Assembly (NCBI RefSeq): GCF_036322585.1 | Contig: NZ_AP024600.1 | Coordinates: forward strand, 4,340,001 to 4,404,000 | Source: Luteolibacter sp. LG18 | GTDB lineage: Bacteria > Verrucomicrobiota > Verrucomicrobiia > Verrucomicrobiales > Akkermansiaceae | Length of the DNA: 64,000 bases | Direction: 5' to 3' | Part shown: positions 37,672 to 50,337 of the stretch, piece by piece | How positions within the stretch are numbered: the first letter of the stretch is position 1 | How the letters are laid out: each line of letters begins with the position of its first letter | Translations under genes and position numbers: made by a program | The notes under the pieces: model-generated | Databases searched by the model: none | Seen by the model: only the letters and a program-made list of their open reading frames with translations | What the model was told of the DNA's origin: nothing

Positions 37672-37834
37672 CACAAGTTTTCAACTTGTGAGTGGGTCGG
37701 TTTCCGCCGTTCCCTCACGGCTCCAGTCCGCCTATAAAAAAACCCCGATGATGGGTTCTTCAATGCCGGACTGGCGTTGCAACGGCCTTCGGGGATTCTC
37801 CCACCCACAAGTTGAAAACTTGCGCTACTTCTCA
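37653..37834. mobile_element. REPIN/MITE-like element, ~182 bp, with 31-bp inverted arms and 11-bp flanking direct repeats
   Basis: Arms 37666-37696 and 37800-37830 are inverted copies matching at 29 of 31 positions. Each arm has GTAG followed by a CAAGTT-TTC-AACTTG hairpin, the layout of REP sequences paired as a REPIN. The 11-bp sequence TGTCGCAATCC occurs on both sides (37642-37652 and 37835-37845) like a target duplication. Inside there is a smaller hairpin (CCAGTCCG and its complement near 37723 and 37767). No protein is encoded. It starts within the final codons of glpD. Confidence 0.8.
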
Positions 37835-37904
37835 TGTCGCAATCCAGCGGTCCGGGATCATTGATCCGGCGGCCGGGCGGGTGCATGATGGCACTTCGAA
37901 AACC

Positions 37905-39152
37905 ATGCGCGATTCCCTCTATCCCATCGCCCGCGAGCTGTATGCCGAACACGGCGTCGATACCGAAGCGGTCCTTTCCCAACTCGCCTCCGTGGCCGTG
38001 TCCCTCCATTGTTGGCAGGGCGACGATGTCGGCGGCTTCGAAGGCGACGGCCTCACCGGCGGCGGCATCCAGGCGACCGGAAACTATCCCGGCAAAGCCC
38101 GCACCCCCGGCGAACTCCGCCAGGACTTGGAGAAAGCCCTGTCCCTGATTCCCGGCAAGCACCGCCTCAACCTGCATGCCTGCTACGCGGATTTCTCCGG
38201 CGGCAAGGTTGACCGCGATGCCCTCGAGGTGAAGCATTTCCAGAGCTGGATCGACTGGTGCAAGACCCAGGGCCTGGGCATGGATTTCAATCCGACCTAT
38301 TTCTCCCACCCGCTGGCGAACGATGGAGCCACGCTGACCCACGCCGACGAAGGCGTGCGCGCGTTCTGGATCCGCCACGGCATCGCCTGCCGCGAGATCG
38401 GCGCGGAAATGGGCCGCCAGCTCGGTTCCGCGACCGTCACCAACGTTTGGATTCCGGACGGCTCGAAGGATCTGCCGGTCGACCGCAAGGGGCCGCGCCA
38501 GCGCCTGGAGGCTTCGCTCGATGAAATCTTCCGCAAGGAGCTGCCGACCGAGCATCACCTCGACGCCGTCGAGTCAAAGTTGTTCGGCATCGGTTCCGAG
38601 TCCTACGTCGTCGGCTCGAATGAATTCTACCTCGGCTACGCGGTCTCGCGTTCGAAGCTGGTCTGCCTCGATGCCGGTCACTTCCACCCGACCGAGAGCG
38701 TGGCGGACAAGATCTCGTCCGTGCTCCAGTTCGTGCCGGAAATCCTGCTGCACGTGAGCCGCGGCGTCCGCTGGGACAGCGACCACGTCGTCATCCTCGA
38801 TGATCCCACCAAGGCGATCATGGAGGAACTGGTGCGCGGCGGCTTCCTCGGCCGCACCCACATCGGTCTCGATTTCTTCGACGCCAGCATCAACCGCGTG
38901 GCCGCCTGGGTCATCGGCACCCGCTCGACGCTCAAGGCGCTGCTGCTCGCGCTGCTCGAACCCGCCGCCAAGCTGCGCGGGCTGGAAGCCGAGGGCGACT
39001 TCACCTCCCGCCTCGCGATCCTCGAGGAGATCAAGTCGCTGCCGTTCGGCGCGGTGTGGGACGAGTACTGCCGCCGCCAGGACACGCCGGTGGGCGAGGA
39101 CTGGCTGCGCGAGGTGAAGCGCTACGAGAGCGACGTGCTTTCGAAGCGCTGA
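37905..39152 (+). CDS. rhaA: L-rhamnose isomerase RhaA
   Basis: Converts L-rhamnose to L-rhamnulose in the cytosol. The 415-residue protein follows E. coli RhaA along its full length: [14 protein letters not shown] near the start, [64 protein letters not shown] and [13 protein letters not shown] (metal and substrate sites), then [20 protein letters not shown]. Start at 37905 matches the usual N-terminus ([12 protein letters not shown]). It stands alone: neither rhaB nor rhaD follows directly. A strong terminator is 19 bases past its stop. Confidence 0.97.
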
Positions 39153-40568: not shown

Positions 40569-40774
40569 CTTGGCAAGCACAGCGGAACCATTTTTCCGCT
40601 CAAGGAAATATCCTCCAAGAAATGCGACAGGCGGAGGAGGGGATTTCGAAGCGCCAAACCACGATTCCACCCGGATGGCATTCAAGGACGGGATGGGAGG
40701 ATGTCAATCCTGTGTGGAGTTCGTCGCACTCCTCCTCTTGTCCGGGAGATGGGGAATCCCTTTGGTCGCGAGTC

Positions 40775-41707
40775 ATGGCATTCACACTCATCAAGGGAAC
40801 GTTCCAGGTCCTCAACTACTCGCCGGACGGCGATTCGATCCGCTTCGAGCCGGAGGACCGCTCGTTGGTCGAAGGTCTCCAGAACGGCGGCCGGGCCAAG
40901 TTCAACGCCCGCGGCCACGTCCAGCTCCGCATCGAGGCGATCGACACGCTCGAAACCCACTTCACCCCGCCCAGCGGCGGCGCGATCCTGCACCAGCCGC
41001 GGGAACTGGCGAAGGCCGCGGCCGAGGGCCTGCTCGAGTTCACCGGCATCTCGGACGTGGTGTGGGATGATCGCCGCAACACGGTGATCAGCGCCAGCGA
41101 TGGCACGCCCGGTTACATCCTGGCCCGCGCCGTGGAGAAGAACGGCCGCCCGATCGCCTTCGTGTTCACCGGAGAGCCGGAGCAGGCCGATGGCACCGAT
41201 GTCTTCCTCGACGTCGAGCTGCTGAAGACCAGCTACAACTGGCAGGCGATCTCCAACGGCATGGCCTATCCAACCTTCTACAAGGGCCTCTTCAGCCAGC
41301 TCCGCAACGCGCTCTCTGTCGAGGCCGCCGCCGCCCGTGCCGCGGGACTCGGCGTTTACGCGAACGACGGCACGCTCGATGGCTTCGATGCCTCCACCTT
41401 GAAGGCGATCACCGACGAGGTGCCGATCCTCCCGAAACTGTTCCGCCGCCTTTCGGACTATATCGTCAACCATTCGAGCGCCTTGGGCTTCAAGGAAGCG
41501 CTCGAGGAATCCCGCGAGCCGGTGCTGGATCTCCGCGAGACCAACTTCACCCACTTCGGCAACCTGGTCGAACAGGAGCCCGGCTCGACCTTCATCCGCC
41601 TGAACCGCCTGCCGGAGGAAATGGTCTTCGACGAAACCATCCCGCAGCCCGGTCCGAAGTTCGCCCGGATGGTCGCGGGAGAACTGGAAGAGCTGGCGCT
41701 CGCCTGA
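40775..41707 (+). CDS. SNase-like (OB-fold nuclease-like) domain protein
   Basis: A 310-residue cytosolic protein. The N-terminal 140 residues (FQVLNYSPDGDSIRFEP, VQLRIEAIDTLETHF, ARAVEKNGRPIAFVFTGE) resemble thermonuclease-type OB folds; SNase proteins have an R-x-x-G-I-D-x-x-E loop, and here LRIEAIDTLETH fits that shape. The C-terminal half is helical and unassigned. No signal peptide is present. Nuclease activity is unproven because the complete catalytic set cannot be confirmed. It converges with the fused aldolase gene. Confidence 0.6.
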   Translation: MAFTLIKGTFQVLNYSPDGDSIRFEPEDRSLVEGLQNGGRAKFNARGHVQLRIEAIDTLETHFTPPSGGAILHQPRELAKAAAEGLLEFTGISDVVWDDRRNTVISASDGTPGYILARAVEKNGRPIAFVFTGEPEQADGTDVFLDVELLKTSYNWQAISNGMAYPTFYKGLFSQLRNALSVEAAAARAAGLGVYANDGTLDGFDASTLKAITDEVPILPKLFRRLSDYIVNHSSALGFKEALEESREPVLDLRETNFTHFGNLVEQEPGSTFIRLNRLPEEMVFDETIPQPGPKFARMVAGELEELALA

Positions 41708-41788: not shown

Positions 41789-43990
41789 TCAGCGGAGGAA
41801 GGCCTCGTGCAGGCCGCCATCCACGGTGATGATCTGTCCGGTGGTCTTGCTCAGGCGGTTCGTCACGAGCAGGAAGTAAGCCTCGGCCTGGTCGGCCGGG
41901 GTGATCGGCGCCTTGGTCAGGGTGCGGTCGGCATAGAACTGCGCGAGCTTCGAGACCAGCGATTCGGTCGCCTCATCCTCGGTGTAGGGGATGTTGTACT
42001 TCGCGAGGCTGCCGATCACGCGGTCGCGCGGGAACATGGCGGAACCCTGCACCACGGTGGCCGGGGCCACGCCGTTCACGCGCACCAGCGGGGCGAGTTC
42101 CATGGCGAGCTCACGGACGAGGTGGTTGGCGGCGGCCTTGCTGGTATCGTAGGCGAGGCTGCCCTTCTTCGCCACGGCGGCATTGGCGCTGGTGGTGAGG
42201 ACGAGTGCGCCGCGCAGGCCCTGTTCCTTCCAGGTCTTGTAGGCCTCGTCGGCCACGTAGTAACTGCCGGTGACGTTGATGTTGAAGGTGAGCGCCCACT
42301 TGTCGTCCGGGATGTGGCCGGTGGTGTCGCTCGGCACGAAGATGCCGGCGGTGACCTCGATGGCATCGAAGCCGCCGTAGGCGAGCGCCACCTGGTCGAG
42401 CATCTCGCGGATGCTGGCGCGGTCGGTGATGTTCGCGCGCAGGCCGATGGCCGGACCACAGCCGGAAATGCCGCTGCCCGCCACGCCGATGCCGACGCCA
42501 TACTTGTCGGTGATTTCCTTCGCGGTGGCTTCCGCGGCCTCGTGGTTGAGGTCGACGCAGACGATGTGCGCGCCTTCCTTCACCAGGCGGTGGGCGGTTT
42601 CCTTGCCGATGCCGCTGCCGGCGCCGATGACGATGTGGATCTGGCGGGCCAGTTCCTTCTCGGCGGGCATGCGCTGGAGCTTCGCTTCCTCGAGCAACCA
42701 GTATTCGATGTCGAAGGCTTCCTGCTGCGGCAGGGCGATGTATTCGTCGATCGCCTCGGCGCCGCGCATCACTTCCACGGCGCAGTTGTAGAACTCGGCG
42801 GTCACGCGGGACTCGGACTTGTCCTTGCCCCAGGCTATCATGCCGATGCCCGGGATCAGGATCACGGTCGGGTTCGGGTCGCGCATCGCCGGGGAGTTGG
42901 CGTGCTTGCAGGCCGCGTAATAGGCGGCGTAGTCCTTGCGATACTGCTCCAGGCCGGTTTCAAGCAGCGCCTTGAGCTGCGCGACGTCCTGGGTCTGCGG
43001 GTTCCACGCGACGTAGAGCGGCTTGATCTTGGTGCGGAGGAAATGGTCCGGGCAGGAGGTGCCGAGCTCGGCGAGGCGCGGGGCATCGGCGGAGTTCACG
43101 AAGCGCAGGATCTTCTCGTCGTGCTGGACGGTGCCGACGAAACGCTTCTGCGCGGACACCTTGCCGCGCAGCCACGGCAGGATGGCGGCGAGGGTGGCAT
43201 CGCGCTCGATCGCCGGGAGCGGCTGGCAGGTCGCGCCGCCAAAGGCCGTGGCGTCGCCGCCGTTGGCCTGGTATTTCGTTTCGATGTAATCGGCGGCCTT
43301 CTCGATGAAATCGAGCGTGCGGATGTAGCACGCCTTGTCGTCGTCATCCCACGAGATGAAGCCGTGCTGGCCCATCATGATCGCCCGGGTGCCGGGGTTC
43401 TGCTTCTCGATCTCCTGCATTGCGAGGCCGAGCTCGAAGCCGGGGCGCATCCACGGCACATACTCCATTTCACCACCGAAGATCTCGCCGGTGAGCTCCT
43501 GGCAACGGCGGCTGGCGGCGATCGCGATGATCGCGTTCGGGTGCATGTGGTCGACATGCTTGCCGGTGAGGAAGCTGTGCAGCGGGGTGTCGATCGAGGA
43601 CGCGCGCGGGTTCAGGTTGAAGGTCGTGTGCGTGAACATGCCGACCATCGAGTCCTCCGCCGGGGTCTTCAGGCCGTTGTCCGGCAGCGCGGCGTAGATG
43701 CGCTGGAGGCCGATCAGCTTGTCCTGATAGAGGGACGAGAAATTCTCACGCGTGCTGGTGCGCAGGTCGCCGCCGGAGCCCTTCACCCACAGGACTTCCA
43801 CGTCCTTGCCGGTGAGCGGATCCTTCTCGATCACCTTCGAGGAGGTGTTGCCACCGCCGGTGTTGGTGATGCGCTGGTCGCTGCCGAGGAGATTCGAGCG
43901 ATACACCAGGCGGCCGACCGGATCGAGGTTGGCCGCGGTGGAATCGTCCCATTTGTAGCTCACGTGTTGATAGGCTTCTGGTTTGACCAT
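41789..43990 (-). CDS. Bifunctional rhamnulose-1-phosphate aldolase / (S)-lactaldehyde dehydrogenase-type SDR
   Basis: A 733-residue fusion. Residues 1-440 form a class II aldolase domain with the metal site HMHPNAII (148-153 core) and GGGNTSSKV, splitting rhamnulose-1-phosphate to dihydroxyacetone phosphate and lactaldehyde. Residues about 465-733 are a short-chain dehydrogenase with VIGAGSGIGKETAHRL and the Tyr-x-x-x-Lys pair in YDTSKAAANHL. This RhaE/RhaEW-type arrangement is known from many bacteria. It diverges from deoR across a 94-base region with ordered repeats, so DeoR probably controls it. The kinase RhaB is not in this window. Confidence 0.9.
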   Translation of the reverse strand: MVKPEAYQHVSYKWDDSTAANLDPVGRLVYRSNLLGSDQRITNTGGGNTSSKVIEKDPLTGKDVEVLWVKGSGGDLRTSTRENFSSLYQDKLIGLQRIYAALPDNGLKTPAEDSMVGMFTHTTFNLNPRASSIDTPLHSFLTGKHVDHMHPNAIIAIAASRRCQELTGEIFGGEMEYVPWMRPGFELGLAMQEIEKQNPGTRAIMMGQHGFISWDDDDKACYIRTLDFIEKAADYIETKYQANGGDATAFGGATCQPLPAIERDATLAAILPWLRGKVSAQKRFVGTVQHDEKILRFVNSADAPRLAELGTSCPDHFLRTKIKPLYVAWNPQTQDVAQLKALLETGLEQYRKDYAAYYAACKHANSPAMRDPNPTVILIPGIGMIAWGKDKSESRVTAEFYNCAVEVMRGAEAIDEYIALPQQEAFDIEYWLLEEAKLQRMPAEKELARQIHIVIGAGSGIGKETAHRLVKEGAHIVCVDLNHEAAEATAKEITDKYGVGIGVAGSGISGCGPAIGLRANITDRASIREMLDQVALAYGGFDAIEVTAGIFVPSDTTGHIPDDKWALTFNINVTGSYYVADEAYKTWKEQGLRGALVLTTSANAAVAKKGSLAYDTSKAAANHLVRELAMELAPLVRVNGVAPATVVQGSAMFPRDRVIGSLAKYNIPYTEDEATESLVSKLAQFYADRTLTKAPITPADQAEAYFLLVTNRLSKTTGQIITVDGGLHEAFLR

Positions 43991-44051
43991 GGTATGCAGG
44001 TTTGAGAAGGATGGCTGGAGGTGAATTGACCGATTAAATCCAATTAATCAA

Positions 44052-44084
44052 CACAAATTCCCACCATTTCCCACAAATTCCCAC
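44052..44084. promoter_or_regulatory. Three TTCCCAC repeats at exact 10-bp spacing before deoR (candidate operator)
   Basis: TTCCCAC occurs at 44058-44064, 44068-44074 and 44078-44084, with the wider CACAAATTCCCAC unit at 44052 and 44072. The last copy touches the ATG of deoR, so bound protein would cover the start region, and no ribosome-binding site is visible. Spacing of one DNA turn places all three on the same face. It also lies upstream of the fused aldolase gene on the other strand. Confidence 0.6.
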
Positions 44085-44849
44085 ATGTTGCCCGTCGAAC
44101 GCCAAAATCGCATTCTGAAACTTGCCCGCCGTGACGGCACCGTCCGGACCATCGACCTCGCCAAGGACTTCGATGTGGCGGAGGAAACGATCCGCCGGGA
44201 TCTCGACTTCCTGAGCCGCCGCGGCCACCTGAAGCGGACGCACGGCGGAGCGATGGACAACTCCGGGCCCCTCGCCGAGCTGCCGTATTCCGAGCGTGAG
44301 GCGCGTCAGCTCAACGAGAAGGTCTCGATGGCCAAGGAAGCCGCCCGGGTGCTGTGCGCCGGGGAAACGATCCTGCTCGATGCCAGTTCCACCTCGCTCC
44401 AGCTCGCCTCCCACCTGCCCGCGGGGCTGCCCCTGCGCGTGGTGAGCCACTCGCTGGCGGTGATGGAACGCCTCGCCAGCAATGACAGCGTGGAGCTGAT
44501 CCAGCTCGGCGGGACCTATGAGCCGCGTGGCCGGCGCTACAACGGGCTCATCACCGAGCTCGCGGTGCGGGCGCTGCGGATCGACCGCTTCTTTTTCTCC
44601 GGCGGCGGCCTCGATCCGGTCCGCGGCCTGAGCGAACCGAATTCCGAGCAGGCCCGCCTGAAGCGGGTGATGCTCGATCATTCGGCGTGGAAATGCGCGC
44701 TGATCGACCACACCAAGATGGGCGTTCAGACGGACTTCTTCTTCGCCCAACCCCAGGAAGTGGACCTGGTGATCACGGACAACGAGTCTCGTGAATACGC
44801 CAAGGAACACCTGAAAAACCCGCCGTTCACGCTGAAATACGGTCGTTGA
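44085..44849 (+). CDS. DeoR-family transcriptional regulator
   Basis: A 254-residue regulator. The N-terminus RQNRILKLARRDGTVRTIDLAKDFDVAEETIRRDLDFLSRRGHLKRTHGGA is a typical DeoR helix-turn-helix with the R-R-D-L recognition segment, followed by a sugar-phosphate-binding (ribose-5-phosphate-isomerase-like) domain with ILLDASSTSLQLASHLP. DeoR proteins usually repress sugar genes and are released by a phosphorylated sugar. It lies between the rhamnulose aldolase gene and four sugar genes, so it is the likely regulator of both sides. Its ligand is unknown. Confidence 0.93.
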   Translation: MLPVERQNRILKLARRDGTVRTIDLAKDFDVAEETIRRDLDFLSRRGHLKRTHGGAMDNSGPLAELPYSEREARQLNEKVSMAKEAARVLCAGETILLDASSTSLQLASHLPAGLPLRVVSHSLAVMERLASNDSVELIQLGGTYEPRGRRYNGLITELAVRALRIDRFFFSGGGLDPVRGLSEPNSEQARLKRVMLDHSAWKCALIDHTKMGVQTDFFFAQPQEVDLVITDNESREYAKEHLKNPPFTLKYGR

Positions 44850-44880
44850 AGCCGGTCTGATCACTGCATTCAACTATTGG

Positions 44881-44916
44881 GAAAAAGTGCGATTTTGCCC
44901 GAAAATGTGAATTTTC
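44881..44916 (+). promoter_or_regulatory. Two 20-bp-spaced palindromic boxes upstream of the sugar operon (candidate operator)
   Basis: GAAAATGTGAATTTTC at 44901-44916 is a palindrome (GAAAAT and ATTTTC around GTGA). A related sequence, GAAAAAGTGCGATTTTG, starts exactly 20 bases earlier at 44881. The region is AT-rich and lies 38 bases before the mutarotase-like gene. Two turns between boxes suggest cooperative binding, by DeoR or another regulator. Confidence 0.5.
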
Positions 44917-44954
44917 TTCCGTTTTTGAGCGTTTGGTTATGAATCGCCCTCAAC

Positions 44955-46064
44955 ATGACTGAAATGCAATCGATCCACGGTGAACCCTCTTGGATTCTCT
45001 CCAATGATTCGGTGGAACTCGCCGTGAGCCGACGGGCGGGCCATATGGCTCCGGTGGTTTTCCGGACGGGAGGTCGTGAATTCTCGCCGTATTCGCTCTC
45101 GCCGTGGACGCGGGAGGAATCGAATCCGGAGCTGCCGGAATTGCTGCGCGTCCTGCGGGGAGACTTCTTTTGCATGCCATTCGGGGTCTCCAAGGAGTTC
45201 CCGCCACATGGCCATCCGGCGAACAGCGATTGGGACCTGATCTCGCAATCCGCCGATGAGTTGCGCCTTTCGATTTCCGGCGGAGTGGATGGAGCCACGA
45301 TCGAGAAGGTCGTTTCCGTTCGCCGAGGCGAGACGGCGGTGTATCAGGATCATATCATCCGCGGCTGGGAAGGGCGCTACAACTACGGCAACCATCCCAT
45401 CTTGGACTTTTCTGGGATTCCCGAAGGGCAGGGGCGTTTGAGCGTTTCGCCCTTCCGCTGGGGCTCGGTCTACCGCGGCGTCTTCGCGGACCCGTCCATC
45501 GGCGAACACGGCGTGATGGAATCCGGCGCGCTGTTCACCGATCTCAAAGCCGTGCCGCTGGCGGCCGGCGGCACCACCGATGTGACCCGCTACCCGGTGC
45601 GCTCCGGTTGCGAGGACCTGGTGATGATGGTCAGCGAGCCCGCCACCGAGGCCCAGCCTTTCGCATGGTCCGCCGCGGTGATGGATGGCTACGTGTGGTT
45701 CTCGCTGAAGAACCCCGCCGACTTCCCGACCACGCTGTTCTGGCTCTCGAACGGTGGTCGCCAGGCCGAGCCGTGGAGCAGCCGTCACTTCGGCCGCGTC
45801 GGCATCGAGGAGGTCTACTCCCATTTCTTCGACGGCCTGGAAATTTCCCGCGAGGACCGTCTCGCGCCCGAAGGCATTCCCACCACCCGTGAGTTCCACA
45901 AGGACGAGGCGGTGTCGGTGCGGATCGTCCAGGGCATCGTGCCCGTTCCCGCGGGCTTCCAAACGGTGGCTTCGATCGTTCCGGACGGCCCTGGCCGTGT
46001 CACCCTCCAGGATGAGAACGGGCAGACCGTCACCGCCAAGGTCGACTGGTCCTACGTCCTCTGA
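44955..46064 (+). CDS. Aldose-1-epimerase-like (galactose mutarotase superfamily) protein
   Basis: A 369-residue cytosolic protein with a galactose-mutarotase-like all-beta pattern: VELAVSRRAGHMAPVVFRTGG near the start, FCMPFG, HPANSDWDLIS, and many short strands to the end. It is longer than standard GalM and matches it only in general form, so it may act on another sugar or glycan. It starts 105 bases after deoR, just after the palindromic boxes, and leads the run of four sugar genes. Confidence 0.65.
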   Translation: MTEMQSIHGEPSWILSNDSVELAVSRRAGHMAPVVFRTGGREFSPYSLSPWTREESNPELPELLRVLRGDFFCMPFGVSKEFPPHGHPANSDWDLISQSADELRLSISGGVDGATIEKVVSVRRGETAVYQDHIIRGWEGRYNYGNHPILDFSGIPEGQGRLSVSPFRWGSVYRGVFADPSIGEHGVMESGALFTDLKAVPLAAGGTTDVTRYPVRSGCEDLVMMVSEPATEAQPFAWSAAVMDGYVWFSLKNPADFPTTLFWLSNGGRQAEPWSSRHFGRVGIEEVYSHFFDGLEISREDRLAPEGIPTTREFHKDEAVSVRIVQGIVPVPAGFQTVASIVPDGPGRVTLQDENGQTVTAKVDWSYVL

Positions 46065-46104
46065 ATTTCCCATTTGTTTTGATCCTTATCGCACTTCCAT
46101 ACCC

Positions 46105-47364
46105 ATGACCCAACCCCGCACCACGAAAGACCTGACCACCCGGACAGGCAATGTCCGCGCCGCTGTTGAAGCCCACCTCGAGGAAACCGGCGGCCTGCTG
46201 CGCCTGGCCCCTTGCTGGGTGCCGCGCTCGTTCCTCCAGCCCGGCAAGCGCTTGAAGCTGCATCCGGACGACCTCTACGCCTTCGGCCTGAACCGCGGCG
46301 GCATCGACGAGCGCTGGTTCGCCTCCACCACCGAGGCCGCGAACGACAACCGCACCGAGGACGAGGGCCTGTCCTACGTCGTCGTCGGCAACGAGCGCTT
46401 CACGCTGAAGGATGCCGTGGCCGAGTGCGGCGCGGAGCTGATCGGCGAGGCGATCTGGAACAAGTATGGCAAGTGGCCGGTGTATTCGAAGTTCTTCGAC
46501 AACATGGGGCCGATCCCGCACCACATGCACCAGGACGCCGCGCAGGCCGCGCTGGTGGGCCAGGAAGGCAAGCCGGAATCCTACTACTTCCCGCCGCAGC
46601 ACAACAACGTCGGCAACAATTTCCCCTACACCTTCATGGGCTTCGAGCCCGGCACCACCAAGGAGCAGGTGCGCGAGTGCCTCGCGAACTGGAACAAGGG
46701 TGACAACGGTATCCTCGACCTCTCCAAGGCCTACCGCCTGAAGCCGGGCACCGGCTGGCTGATCGACCCGTGCATCCTCCACGCGCCGGGCTCGCTCTGC
46801 ACCTATGAGCCGCAGTGGGGCTCCGATGTCTTCGGGATGTACCAGTCGCTCGTGGAAGGCCGCGAGGTGCCGTGGGACCTCCTCGTGAAGGACATGCCGG
46901 CGGACAAGCACCAGGACCTCGACTTCATCGTCGACCAGCTCCACTGGGAGAAGAACGTCGACCCTAACTTCAAGGACAACCACTACCTCGAACCGGTGGT
47001 GGCCGAGGAGAGCGAAGGCCACGTCGACAAGTGGATCGTCTACGGCAAGGTCGACAACTTCCAGTACTTCACCGCCAAGGAGCTCACCGTGAAGCCCGGC
47101 GCGAAGGTCACCGTGAAGGACAACGGTGCCTACGGCCTGATCGTGGTGGCTGGTGAAGGCCACGCCAACAAGCTGCGCCTGAACTGCCCGAAGCTGATCC
47201 GTTTCCACGACCTCACGCAGGACGAGTTCTTCGCCACCGAAGCGGCCGCCAAGGCGGGCGTGGTGTTTGAGAACACCTCGGAAACCGAGGACCTCGTCTG
47301 CCTGCGCTACTTCGGCCCGGAGGTGAATCCGGACGCCCCGGCACTCGGCGCTTACAAGAAGTAA
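46105..47364 (+). CDS. Cupin-fold sugar isomerase-like protein (mannose-6-phosphate isomerase-like)
   Basis: A 419-residue protein. The central HHMHQDAAQAA segment (about residues 138-146) gives a set of His residues fit for a metal in a cupin barrel, and a second barrel lies near the C-terminus (TVKPGAKVTVKDNGAYGLIVVAGEG). The layout resembles type I phosphomannose isomerases but key motifs of ManA are not clear, so the substrate is unknown. It is 40 bases after the mutarotase-like gene. No signal peptide. Confidence 0.6.
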   Translation: MTQPRTTKDLTTRTGNVRAAVEAHLEETGGLLRLAPCWVPRSFLQPGKRLKLHPDDLYAFGLNRGGIDERWFASTTEAANDNRTEDEGLSYVVVGNERFTLKDAVAECGAELIGEAIWNKYGKWPVYSKFFDNMGPIPHHMHQDAAQAALVGQEGKPESYYFPPQHNNVGNNFPYTFMGFEPGTTKEQVRECLANWNKGDNGILDLSKAYRLKPGTGWLIDPCILHAPGSLCTYEPQWGSDVFGMYQSLVEGREVPWDLLVKDMPADKHQDLDFIVDQLHWEKNVDPNFKDNHYLEPVVAEESEGHVDKWIVYGKVDNFQYFTAKELTVKPGAKVTVKDNGAYGLIVVAGEGHANKLRLNCPKLIRFHDLTQDEFFATEAAAKAGVVFENTSETEDLVCLRYFGPEVNPDAPALGAYKK

Positions 47365-47562
47365 CCCACCATCGCGAACGGACACGAATTCCAGCTAGGA
47401 AGAGTGGAGTCGCAATTTCACGGGATGGCGAAAATTGACTTTTGAATTTCCGGAATATGACTCTTTATCTGCGAAATCAGCGACATTCGCGGTCACTTCT
47501 TCTCTTCCTTCCTGTGAGTTTGTGTCCATTCTTGGCCCATCCCCTTTGATTTATCGCACCCC

Positions 47563-48564
47563 ATGAAACTCCATAACGCCATGTGGCCTGGTCTGGTCGG
47601 CAAAGAGCCCGGCACCGACCATCCGCCCATCTCCCTCGATCACATGCTCGATCTCACGGCCGCCGCCACGGTGGGCGGTCGCAAGTTCGATGGCATCGAC
47701 CTGTTCCTCTTCCACCCGCACATCGATCCGGACGCGTCCGAGTTCGAGCTCCGCGCCATGGCGGATCGCATCGCCTCGCGCGGGCTGTCCGTCGGTTCGC
47801 TGGTGGCTCCGGTCTGGCCGGGCACCGTCGGTGGCTGCGCCTTCGGCAGCGATGACGACCGGAAGAACTTCGTCCTCGCGGTTGAGAAGGCCTGCCGGAT
47901 CGCGAAGATCCTCAACGAACACGGTGTCCGGAAGTCCGGCATCATCCGCATCGATTCCGCGGGCGGTCCCGAGTCCTTCCTCCAGGATCCGGCGGGCAAT
48001 ACCAAGAAGCTCGCCGAAACTTTCCGCGAAGCCGGCAAGGTGGCCGAGCAGCACGGTGAGCGCCTCGCTGCCGAAGGCGAAATCTGCTGGGGCGGCATGC
48101 ACTCGTGGAAGGCGATGGTGGATACCCTCGAAGCCACCAACCTGCCCGGCATCGTCGGCTTCCAGGCGGACCTCGCCCACACCTACCTCTACCTGCTCGG
48201 TTACAACGCACCCGAGGCGGCGCTGCTGGCCGCCGATTACACCGAGGAGGAATTCTGGGCCGCCTACGCCAAGATGACCGACGTGCTGCGCCCGTGGACG
48301 ATCGATTTCCACGTCGCCCAGAACGACGGCTCGGTGCACGGCACCGGTTCCCACGACAAGACCGGCCGCCATTGCCCGGCGGACGATCCGAACGGCAAAC
48401 TCGATATCCCCCGCGCCTCCGCCTATTGGCTCAAGGGGGCCGCCGACCGCGGCATCGACCACATCTGTTGGGACGGGTGCATGTTCCCGAACGAGACGCT
48501 CGAAACGCCCGCCACCTGGGAAACCATCCTCGCCACCATGATCCAGGTGGACCAAGCCCTCTAA
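47563..48564 (+). CDS. TIM-barrel sugar phosphate isomerase/epimerase (AP-endonuclease-2 family)
   Basis: A 333-residue member of the xylose-isomerase-like TIM barrel group. Its first strand has [15 protein letters not shown] and an alternation of strands and helices follows; [28 protein letters not shown] and [15 protein letters not shown] place likely metal ligands. These proteins isomerise or epimerise sugars or inositols, or act as dehydratases. It follows the cupin gene by 198 bases and precedes a Gfo/Idh dehydrogenase by 13, a pairing common in inositol and keto-sugar pathways. Confidence 0.8.
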
Positions 48565-48577
48565 CACCCCTTCATTC

Positions 48578-49729
48578 ATGTCCAAAAAGGAAATCCGCAT
48601 CGGCCTCATCGGTTACGGCTTCATGGGCCGTACCCACTCCAACGCCTACTCCCAGCTCACCCATTTCTTCGACACCGAGCACGTGCCCGTCCGCCAGGCC
48701 GTCTGTGGCCGCGACGAGGAGAAGGTGAAGGCCTTCGCTGAAAAGTGGGGTTACGCCTCCTACGAAACCGACTGGCGCGAGCTGGTGAAGCGCGAGGACA
48801 TCGACGCCGTCGACATCTGCACGCCGAACGATTCCCACGCCGAGATCGCGCTGGAGTGCATCAAGCACGGCAAGATGATCCTCTGCGAAAAGCCGCTCGC
48901 GCTGAACGGCCCGCAGGGCGAGAAGATGGTCGAGGCGGTGGAAGCCTCCGGCCTGCCGAACCTCGTCTGGTACAACTACCGCTTCCTGCCCGCCGTCACG
49001 CTGGCGAAGAACATCGTCGCCGCCGGTGAACTCGGCCGTGTCTTCCACTACCGCGCGAACTTCCTGCAGGACTGGACGATTTCCCAGGATCTCCCGCAGG
49101 GCGGCGCCGGCCTGTGGCGTCTCGATGCCGCGGCGGCGGGTTCCGGCGTGACCGGCGACCTCCTGGCCCACTGCATCGACACCGCGCGCTGGATCAACGG
49201 CGAGATCGTGCAGGTTTCCGCGATGACCGAGACCTTCATCAAGGAGCGCGTCCACACCGCCACCGGTGAGAAGCAGGCCGTGACCATCGACGACGCGTGC
49301 GCCTTCCTGGCCCGCTTCGAGAACGGCTCGCTGGCGATCTTCGAATCCACCCGCTACGCCCGCGGCCACAAGGCGCTCTACACCTTCGAGATCAACGGCG
49401 AGAAGAAGTCGCTGGCGTGGGATCTCCACGACCTCAACCGCCTGTCGTACTTCGACCACGGCGTTCCCGGCGACCGCCGGAGCTGGGGCAGCATCCATTG
49501 CTCGGATGGCGATCACCCATACGCGGGCAACTGGTGGGTGCCGGGCCTGTGCCTCGGCTACGAGCACTCGTTCACCCACGCGCTCTATGAGTTCTTCAAG
49601 TCGCTGGACAACCCGTCCGCCGAGAAGGCCTATCCGGACTTCCGCCACGCGCTCGGCACGCAGTATGTCTGCGATGCCGTGCTGGAATCGGCGAAGACCG
49701 GCCAGTGGGTCGAGGTGAAGCGGGCGTGA
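48578..49729 (+). CDS. Gfo/Idh/MocA family oxidoreductase
   Basis: NAD(P)-dependent sugar or inositol dehydrogenase of 383 residues. The Rossmann start is [19 protein letters not shown], the conserved EKPLA motif (CEKPLALN) holds the catalytic Lys, and the C-terminal domain has [14 protein letters not shown] with the usual His. It oxidises a ring hydroxyl, often together with an AP2-type isomerase, which fits its neighbour. ATG at 48578. A terminator hairpin follows the stop. Confidence 0.92.
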
Positions 49730-49769
49730 GTTAGATCACATCGCCCGGACACCTCACCGGGGCGTCCTT

Positions 49770-50252
49770 TCAGAACCGGCGCGGGCCATGCGGCCTGGCG
49801 CCGGTTTTTGTTTGGGCGGCGGGCTGTTTCACCGCGTAGGGCTCGTCGGCGGTGCCTGCGGCGAACATCACCAGCACCACGGGGCGCTTGCTGTTGTTGC
49901 GGCCGTTGTGCATCACGTTGACGGTTTCCGCGAAGGCCTGCCCGCCTTTGAGATGCTTCGTCTCGCCGGTTTCCAGTTTCACATCGAGTTCGCCCTCCAG
50001 GATGTAGGCGAAGCACGGCACGGGATGACGGTGCCAGCCGGTCTCGGCTCCGGGCGGGATCACCACCCGCACCGCCGAGACTTCCGCCGGATAGGCCGGC
50101 CAAGTGATCGGCTGGCCGGCGGCATCGACGCGGGTCTTCATCAGCGGCGTGACCGCGATGGTCTTCGAGTAGGCCTTCTCGGCATCAGGACCGGCGGCGA
50201 AGAGCGGGCTGGCGAGAGTGAACGCGGCGAGGGAAACAAGGGCGGTTTTCAT
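49770..50252 (-). CDS. Exported cupin-domain protein
   Basis: A 160-residue protein with a signal peptide (KTALVSLAAFTLASPLFAAG). The mature part is one cupin barrel: VIPPGAETGWHRHPVPCFAYILEGELDV (first motif with two His) and GGQAFAETVNVMHNGRNNS (second motif). It may bind a metal and act as a small dioxygenase or a binding protein. Its last 12 codons lie within the terminator hairpin of the dehydrogenase gene on the other strand. A hairpin lies just upstream of its start. Confidence 0.82.
   Translation of the reverse strand: MKTALVSLAAFTLASPLFAAGPDAEKAYSKTIAVTPLMKTRVDAAGQPITWPAYPAEVSAVRVVIPPGAETGWHRHPVPCFAYILEGELDVKLETGETKHLKGGQAFAETVNVMHNGRNNSKRPVVLVMFAAGTADEPYAVKQPAAQTKTGARPHGPRRF
49774..49809 (+). 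terminator. Terminator of the sugar operon
   Basis: AACCGGCGC (49774-49782) pairs with GCGCCGGTT (49798-49806), 15-base loop, followed by TTT. It ends the Gfo/Idh transcript and lies within the 3' end of the cupin coding sequence. Confidence 0.7.
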
Positions 50253-50260
50253 GGGTGAGG

Positions 50261-50285
50261 GTGCCGGTAGTTAGAACACCGGCAC
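50261..50285 (-). promoter_or_regulatory. Leader hairpin before the cupin gene
   Basis: GTGCCGGT (50261-50268) pairs with ACCGGCAC (50278-50285), 9-base loop, starting 9 bases upstream of the cupin start at 50252. It could be an operator, a 5' leader hairpin, or the end of the upstream gene's transcript. Confidence 0.45.
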
Positions 50286-50337
50286 CGACCGGGACAAGGC
50301 AGGAGAATGTCCGGGTTCCGGAAGGAGATCGGACAGC

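Follow-up and report, generated by a model that had tools for sequence, protein, structure and literature searches.

A four-gene sugar-enzyme cassette in Luteolibacter sp. LG18 and its conservation apart from the neighbouring rhamnose genes

Four genes beside a rhamnose locus

The genome of Luteolibacter sp. LG18, a single contig of 5.80 Mb, carries within the 64,000-nucleotide stretch analysed here (the window) a cassette of four open reading frames (ORFs), all on the forward strand between window positions 44955 and 49729, encoding in order a mutarotase-fold protein, a metallocupin, a barrel of the AP_endonuc_2 type (AP2) and a Gfo/Idh oxidoreductase. These genes, confirmed at the coordinates given in an earlier note on this DNA, had been read there as a second-sugar module attached to the neighbouring rhamnose genes and their DeoR regulator; comparison across genomes establishes them instead as a co-conserved module that is independent of the rhamnose genes.

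The mutarotase-like protein (44955–46064, 369 amino acids) is followed after 40 bp by the cupin (46105–47364, 419 amino acids), for which the ATG at 46105 was chosen as the start, the mechanically called ORF beginning farther upstream. A gap of 198 bp separates the cupin from the xylose-isomerase-like triosephosphate isomerase (TIM) barrel AP2 (47563–48564, 333 amino acids), and only 13 bp lie between AP2 and the Gfo/Idh/MocA oxidoreductase (48578–49729, 383 amino acids; hereafter Gfo). At the 3′ end a terminator-like element on the forward strand (49772–49812) consists of a strongly folding hairpin (49772–49808) and a T-run, with a folding z-score of −3.27 for the 98-nt piece 49728–49825, as the earlier note had anticipated. 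This hairpin was not listed by a simple terminator scan restricted to loops of 3–8 nt, whose sole match in 43900–50300 falls inside the mutarotase gene (one observed, 4.9 expected from shuffled sequence), and a scan for sigma-70-like promoters found none, a result that carries little weight. With these gaps, a single transcript of the four genes is plausible.

Predicted folds and families of the four proteins

The cupin matches no Pfam or NCBIfam family, including the PMI_typeI Pfam models, either at a threshold of 0.001 or at a lenient E-value of 10; its predicted structure (predicted local distance difference test score (pLDDT) 84.8) nevertheless has the bicupin fold of class I phosphomannose isomerases (PMIs) over most of the chain. 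These enzymes match the model with Z-scores of 24.6–27.2, the best being 5zvu (Z 27.2, root-mean-square deviation (rmsd) 2.6, 293 aligned residues), and the next bicupins follow at 14.8. At the sequence level, a profile of 32 cupin homologues reaches PMIs weakly (E = 5e-4), and hhalign gives 87% probability to the PMI of the LG18 genome itself and 51% to Escherichia coli ManA. The alignment to PMI places H140, H142, E158 and H226 of the cupin at metal positions, with H140 at the place of a Gln, so that an H-x-H motif, invariant in the 32 aligned rows (from 32 of the 41 genomes with a cupin), replaces the Q-x-H of PMI; it lies within the HHMHQD motif (residues 139–144) already noticed in the earlier note. 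M245 meets the Arg of the PMI motif SD..YR when the alignment is extended without gaps by three residues beyond its end, and this Arg is probably replaced in the cupin. We take the Q-x-H motif, the aligned His and Glu positions and the SD..YR Arg to be metal and substrate residues in PMI. The exchange of the ligand Gln for His and the Met at the place of the Arg are together compatible with a non-phosphorylated substrate.

A housekeeping mannose-6-phosphate isomerase was rejected as the identity of the cupin, since the genome holds separate, ManA-like class I PMI genes elsewhere, in two copies; a genome search with the separate C-terminal PMI model gave no match. The two copies form a near-identical gene pair (G000:C1:4197510, locus L200, and C1:4798992, locus L201), and a sugar-kinase-like gene, of the ROK type by eye, adjoins the copy at L200.

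For the mutarotase-like protein, neither Pfam nor NCBIfam gives a match at 0.001 or a credible one at an E-value of 10, and a search of PDB sequences returned nothing usable. Its AlphaFold model (pLDDT 91.8) is predicted to adopt the supersandwich fold of aldose 1-epimerases, in agreement with the label that the earlier note had given it: aldose 1-epimerases are its best fold matches (3ty1, Z 25.9, rmsd 3.4, 290 aligned residues), ahead of an uncharacterised TPR-domain protein (5cd6, Z 21.8) and chloroplast NDH subunits (19–20.4), with glycoside hydrolases and lyases at Z 15.6 or lower. Within the galactose mutarotase/aldose 1-epimerase superfamily the likeness is one of fold (Z 26), the protein differing from known members by the lack of a Pfam match of its own and by its identity of about 12% to the best-matching solved structures. 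H85, H147 and E285, candidates for the catalytic His, His and Glu of the superfamily, are invariant in 17 aligned rows (17 of 28 matches were taken into the alignment). A mutarotase-type partner recurs beside the cupin in different families, being either the protein seen in the window or, in some genomes, a DUF4432 protein (loci L167 and L047).

Pfam assigns the other two proteins to the classes named in the earlier note. AP2, a member of a divergent family, matches AP_endonuc_2 (PF01261; 2.6e-10, 40.9 bits against a cut-off of 31.1), on which its barrel fold rests, as structures were predicted for the cupin and mutarotase only. It has no NCBIfam match even at an E-value of 10 and no match among PDB sequences even by profile, and a comparison with L-rhamnose isomerase (RhaA) found no relation. 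As candidate members of a metal quartet, E171/E173, D203 and H250 fall within a weak hhalign alignment (13% probability) with sequences of the psicose-epimerase-like and IolE-like kinds, in which the fourth ligand stays unaligned; the AP2 alignment has rows from 24 of 27 genomes. Gfo matches GFO_IDH_MocA (6e-25), and its best NCBIfam model is levoglucosan dehydrogenase (NF052479), at 306.3 bits against a cut-off of 650; the inositol dehydrogenase model for IolG (TIGR04380) scores 118.8 bits against a cut-off of 355. Among PDB entries 4h3v is nearest (2.5e-95), followed by 6a3f (4.7e-70), listed as a putative dehydrogenase among the PDB matches, which we take to be levoglucosan dehydrogenase. 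The Gfo alignment has rows from 17 of 19 genomes, with L110 (an in-frame stop) and G012 (a split copy) left out.

Conservation of the gene set and its separation from rhamnose genes

In a sample of 288 genomes from the phylum, the cupin has homologues in 41 (E up to 1e-10), the mutarotase in 27 (1e-15), Gfo in 19 (1e-110) and AP2 in 27 (1e-60), where at most six first-look candidates per genome were scored for Gfo and seven for AP2, so that orthologues may have been missed. Of the 19 genomes that have a Gfo orthologue, 18 have AP2 clustered with it (on the same contig in 17, and split at a contig end in G012), the remaining genome, G122, having a Gfo orthologue without AP2. The cupin belongs to the Gfo cluster in 17 of 19, being of the window's kind in 14 and of a divergent kind in three; one gene intervenes at the cupin in G209 and G259, and in G053 the cupin is split over frames. 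The mutarotase is part of the Gfo cluster in nine of the 19. The earlier note had named scattered orthologues as evidence against its grouping; the orthologues are not simply scattered, AP2 keeping to Gfo almost throughout. Members do occur apart as well, since nine of the 27 AP2 genomes are without a Gfo orthologue and, of the 41 genomes with a cupin, 23 have neither cassette nor remnant, which counts against a rigid unit.

An AP2-profile scan of a species-genome collection, in the manner of the conserved-neighbourhood search proposed in the earlier note, finds the gene set again in records of Verrucomicrobiota and Planctomycetota. The best 80 of a larger number of AP2 loci include Akkermansiaceae, Verrucomicrobiaceae, Opitutae and Planctomycetaceae, with Haloferula sp. 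BvORR071 and Rhodopirellula baltica BR-MGV among them; the labels Limnohabitans, Polynucleobacter and Kuenenia on metagenome-assembled genomes seem unlikely for the AP2 gene. At 80 bits or more, 51 of these loci have a Gfo match, 36 a cupin, four a divergent cupin and 17 a mutarotase. Many of the named loci are limited by contig ends, and a flank-controlled count was made on the 45 whose flanks reach 3.5 kb or more on each side (35 excluded), taking same-strand matches within 4.5 kb: cupin, Gfo and mutarotase accompany AP2 in ten loci, cupin and Gfo in ten, Gfo alone in nine, cupin alone in two, cupin and mutarotase in one, and none of them in 13. The recurrence of the gene set in many genomes indicates an arrangement that is more than chance. 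Cupin, AP2 and Gfo show correlated evolutionary distances over 35 loci (Spearman 0.42–0.64, values reached in none of 500 permutations), a correlation compatible with joint inheritance that common species history alone could produce.

Divergent cupins, with 28–29% identity to that of the window, sit within the cassette in genomes G178, G215 and G251 and in the named loci L122, L123, L127 and L140. G277 holds an in-place scar of the cupin between mutarotase and AP2 (L100:9632–9787), in which residues 8–18 run directly into 378–418, and has a divergent cupin on a different contig from the scarred cassette. Together, the divergent cupins within cassettes and the G277 scar suggest that a homologue can take the place of the cupin in its step, and offer a natural hint that both cupins may perform the same step.

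The rhamnose genes next to the cassette comprise L-rhamnose isomerase RhaA (37812–39152, forward strand; NF002203, 686.5 bits against a cut-off of 572), whose true start probably lies downstream of 37812, and a bifunctional rhamnulose-1-phosphate aldolase/short-chain dehydrogenase on the reverse strand (41789–43990; NF006189, 1102 bits against 634), both of them neighbours of the cassette and not members of it. The DeoR-family regulator, assigned by Pfam (44085–44849, forward strand), is the partner of this divergent aldolase gene. In a family comparison of 60 genomes, a DeoR orthologue was found in 11 (threshold 1e-60) and the aldolase fusion in 18 (1e-150), and DeoR directly adjoins the divergent fusion in nine of the 11 genomes that have it, the window included; in G243 and G307 the two matches are on separate contigs, G307 having a 139-amino-acid piece of the fusion about 4 kb from DeoR. 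The stretches compared, 11 loci of 6.5–20 kb, surround DeoR (in G243 also the fusion); a cassette farther away would escape them, and in the ten genomes other than that of the window they hold no mutarotase, cupin, AP2 or Gfo match of 60 bits. Where the cassette was placed relative to DeoR or the fusion, it lies about 95 kb off in G254, about 1.26 Mb off in G251 and on other contigs in G178 and G243; G215, G268 and G277 have the cassette and no fusion at the threshold used.

Seen from the cassette, 40 cupin loci from the 41 genomes have rhamnose genes only at the window and at L066, where the cupin is of a type with 43% identity and has no AP2 or Gfo match beside it. The best 80 AP2 loci hold no RhaA or DeoR match of 80 bits, and the fusion query finds there a different fusion at 23–24% in L184 and L194 and, where L186 ends, a fragment with 50% identity. 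DeoR thus goes with the divergent aldolase fusion and not with the cassette, and synteny across relatives makes the adjacency of cassette and rhamnose genes in the window a local one; with no conserved linkage to rha genes or DeoR, a rhamnose or pectin link of the cassette was rejected, as was its membership in a rhamnose regulon. Elsewhere in the LG18 genome a rhamnulokinase-like gene scores 417.9 bits, below its cut-off of 528. The window also contains, amid the rhamnose genes, a forward-strand ORF at 40772–41707 that neither Pfam nor NCBIfam matches at 0.001.

Possible function of the cassette and its neighbours

None of the curated models tried fits the cassette as a pathway, in line with the statement in the earlier note that no complete known pathway matches it. 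The reading that we favour, to which we would give an even chance, is that the cassette interconverts an unphosphorylated sugar by mutarotation, isomerisation, epimerisation and NAD(P)-linked redox chemistry, probably in the cytosol. The mutarotase-fold protein would equilibrate the anomers; the PMI-fold metallocupin would interconvert aldose and ketose with no need of a phosphate; the AP2 barrel would epimerise or isomerise the keto sugar at a metal site; and Gfo would perform an NAD(P)-linked oxidation or reduction, giving a mainstream sugar for phosphorylation by general kinases. The individual activities, the sequence of the steps, the location, the phosphate-free substrate and the substrate class are here what we infer. 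In favour of work on a free sugar speak the fold of the cupin, its changed metal ligand and probably lost Arg, the existence of PMI copies elsewhere in the genome, and the mutarotase partner that recurs beside it.

The reading draws on the gene set, its conservation and two predicted folds. Several points weigh against it: the nearest curated family of Gfo points to a rival, and neither a transporter nor a sugar kinase is seen inside the window's cassette in the ORF list or by Pfam. In the flank-controlled loci AP2 stands without cupin or Gfo nearby 13 times and with Gfo and no cupin nine times, so that either the pathway is modular or AP2 is also used otherwise. The Lys-Pro-Glu stretch bearing the third metal ligand is absent from the divergent cupin, which weakens the idea of a common step, and the gene context of loci L194, L104 and L184 (described below) hints at an aldolase route.

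The main rival, towards which Gfo points, is a levoglucosan-like route. Here Gfo would oxidise an anhydro sugar or glycoside at its C3, AP2 would beta-eliminate or hydrate, and cupin and mutarotase would process the released keto sugar. Besides the match of Gfo to the levoglucosan dehydrogenase model and to 6a3f, published routes, as far as they are described in PMC10066097 and PMC7676230, pair Gfo enzymes with barrels of the PF01261 type, about 275 and 325 residues long, and a 3-keto-disaccharide hydrolase gene comes after one of the cassettes (L100). We nonetheless regard this route as less likely than the free-sugar reading. Gfo reaches only about half the cut-off of that model, AP2 matches no PDB sequence, and the lgdA-lgdB1-lgdB2-lgdC cluster of Bacillus smithii, to which the cassette is alike in clustering a Gfo/Idh protein of the same broad group with a sugar-phosphate-isomerase-like PF01261 barrel, has by its description in PMC7676230 two proteins of each kind, the second Gfo being LgdC, and ABC transporter genes. 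The cassette has one of each kind and no transporter genes, and it adds a PMI-fold cupin and a mutarotase that are not part of the levoglucosan route as described there.

A variant inositol route, with Gfo as inositol dehydrogenase, an IolE/IolI-like AP2 and the cupin in place of IolB, is improbable. Gfo, AP2 and cupin presumably share superfamilies with IolG, IolE and IolB, and TIGR04380 does match Gfo; the score is however far under the IolG cut-off, no IolD in the genome exceeds its own (201.6 against 715), AP2 and cupin match no NCBIfam model, and the cupin is PMI-fold, so that the inositol route is not supported. The least probable of all the readings, and a very improbable one, is that of a second-sugar module which belongs functionally with the rhamnose genes and is under DeoR control: physical adjacency in the window, with DeoR 105 bp upstream on the same strand, speaks for it, and against it stand the pairing of DeoR with the fusion and the near-absence of rhamnose genes around other cassettes at the thresholds used. 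The deoxy or acidic sugar from pectin or algal glycan that the earlier note had envisaged as substrate is likewise without direct support. A literature search on apiose gave nothing useful, and the L-glucose/L-galactose lgu pathway was set aside as consisting of different genes, on the published annotation and purified N-terminal sequences given in PMC12632266. The lgu genes of Luteolibacter LG18 share with the cassette their place in Verrucomicrobiota, as do the nearest named loci, and a free sugar as the starting point; the words Gfo and rhamnose are absent from the main text of that paper, in which cupin was not looked for. The same paper used conjugation to disrupt LG18 genes.

Within the free-sugar reading, we tentatively propose an undescribed sugar pathway, widespread among Planctomycetota and Verrucomicrobiota, in which a PMI-fold enzyme without a family model would isomerise a free sugar and pass it to a new family of AP2 epimerases and a Gfo dehydrogenase. 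Open-licence literature, searched by title or abstract, yielded no paper describing this gene set; PMC10628242 deals with beta-eliminating barrels, and PMC7676230 and PMC10066097 with levoglucosan enzymes, all of related enzyme classes. If true, the pathway would let these bacteria process an unusual sugar or cyclitol met on plant and algal polymers. Enzyme discovery has a good target in this small and repeatedly conserved set, two members of which lack a usable match in Pfam or NCBIfam, and uncoupling it from the rhamnose genes prevents misannotation by neighbourhood.

Genes around other copies give varied hints at function, and none of the kinase, glycoside-hydrolase, aldolase or hydrolase neighbours is general across loci. 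In L053 the cupin and Gfo genes enclose one for a PfkB-type kinase, and in L111 a partial PfkB follows Gfo; the cupin of L050 is flanked by GH130 and GH2 genes; and in 13 loci a GHL6/GH42-like protein, its family tested on one representative, is found in the same locus as the cupin. In L194 (9989–17967) AP2 is grouped with an IolE-like barrel, an aldolase-dehydrogenase fusion, DhaK, DhaL and an LsrF-type aldolase, a gene cluster that L104 and L184 resemble (families tested for L194) and that possibly represents a different sugar route using the same AP2 family. No single gene follows Gfo throughout, the commonest being a GreA-like protein (by eye) in six loci.

Sulfatase-like genes, named by eye, lie near the L194-type grouping, and in L043–L067 (for example L045:6822–8894) the more distant cupins repeatedly have beside them a GHL6/GH42-like protein together with a regulator that is AraC-like by eye. 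By home-made gene calls, nine cassette loci also contain a 338-amino-acid protein family (for example L036:6286–7299) that has no credible Pfam or NCBIfam match and appears TIM-barrel-like by eye; its gene precedes the mutarotase in eight of these loci, L148 having no mutarotase match, and the LG18 copy lies away from the cassette, at C1:5144999.

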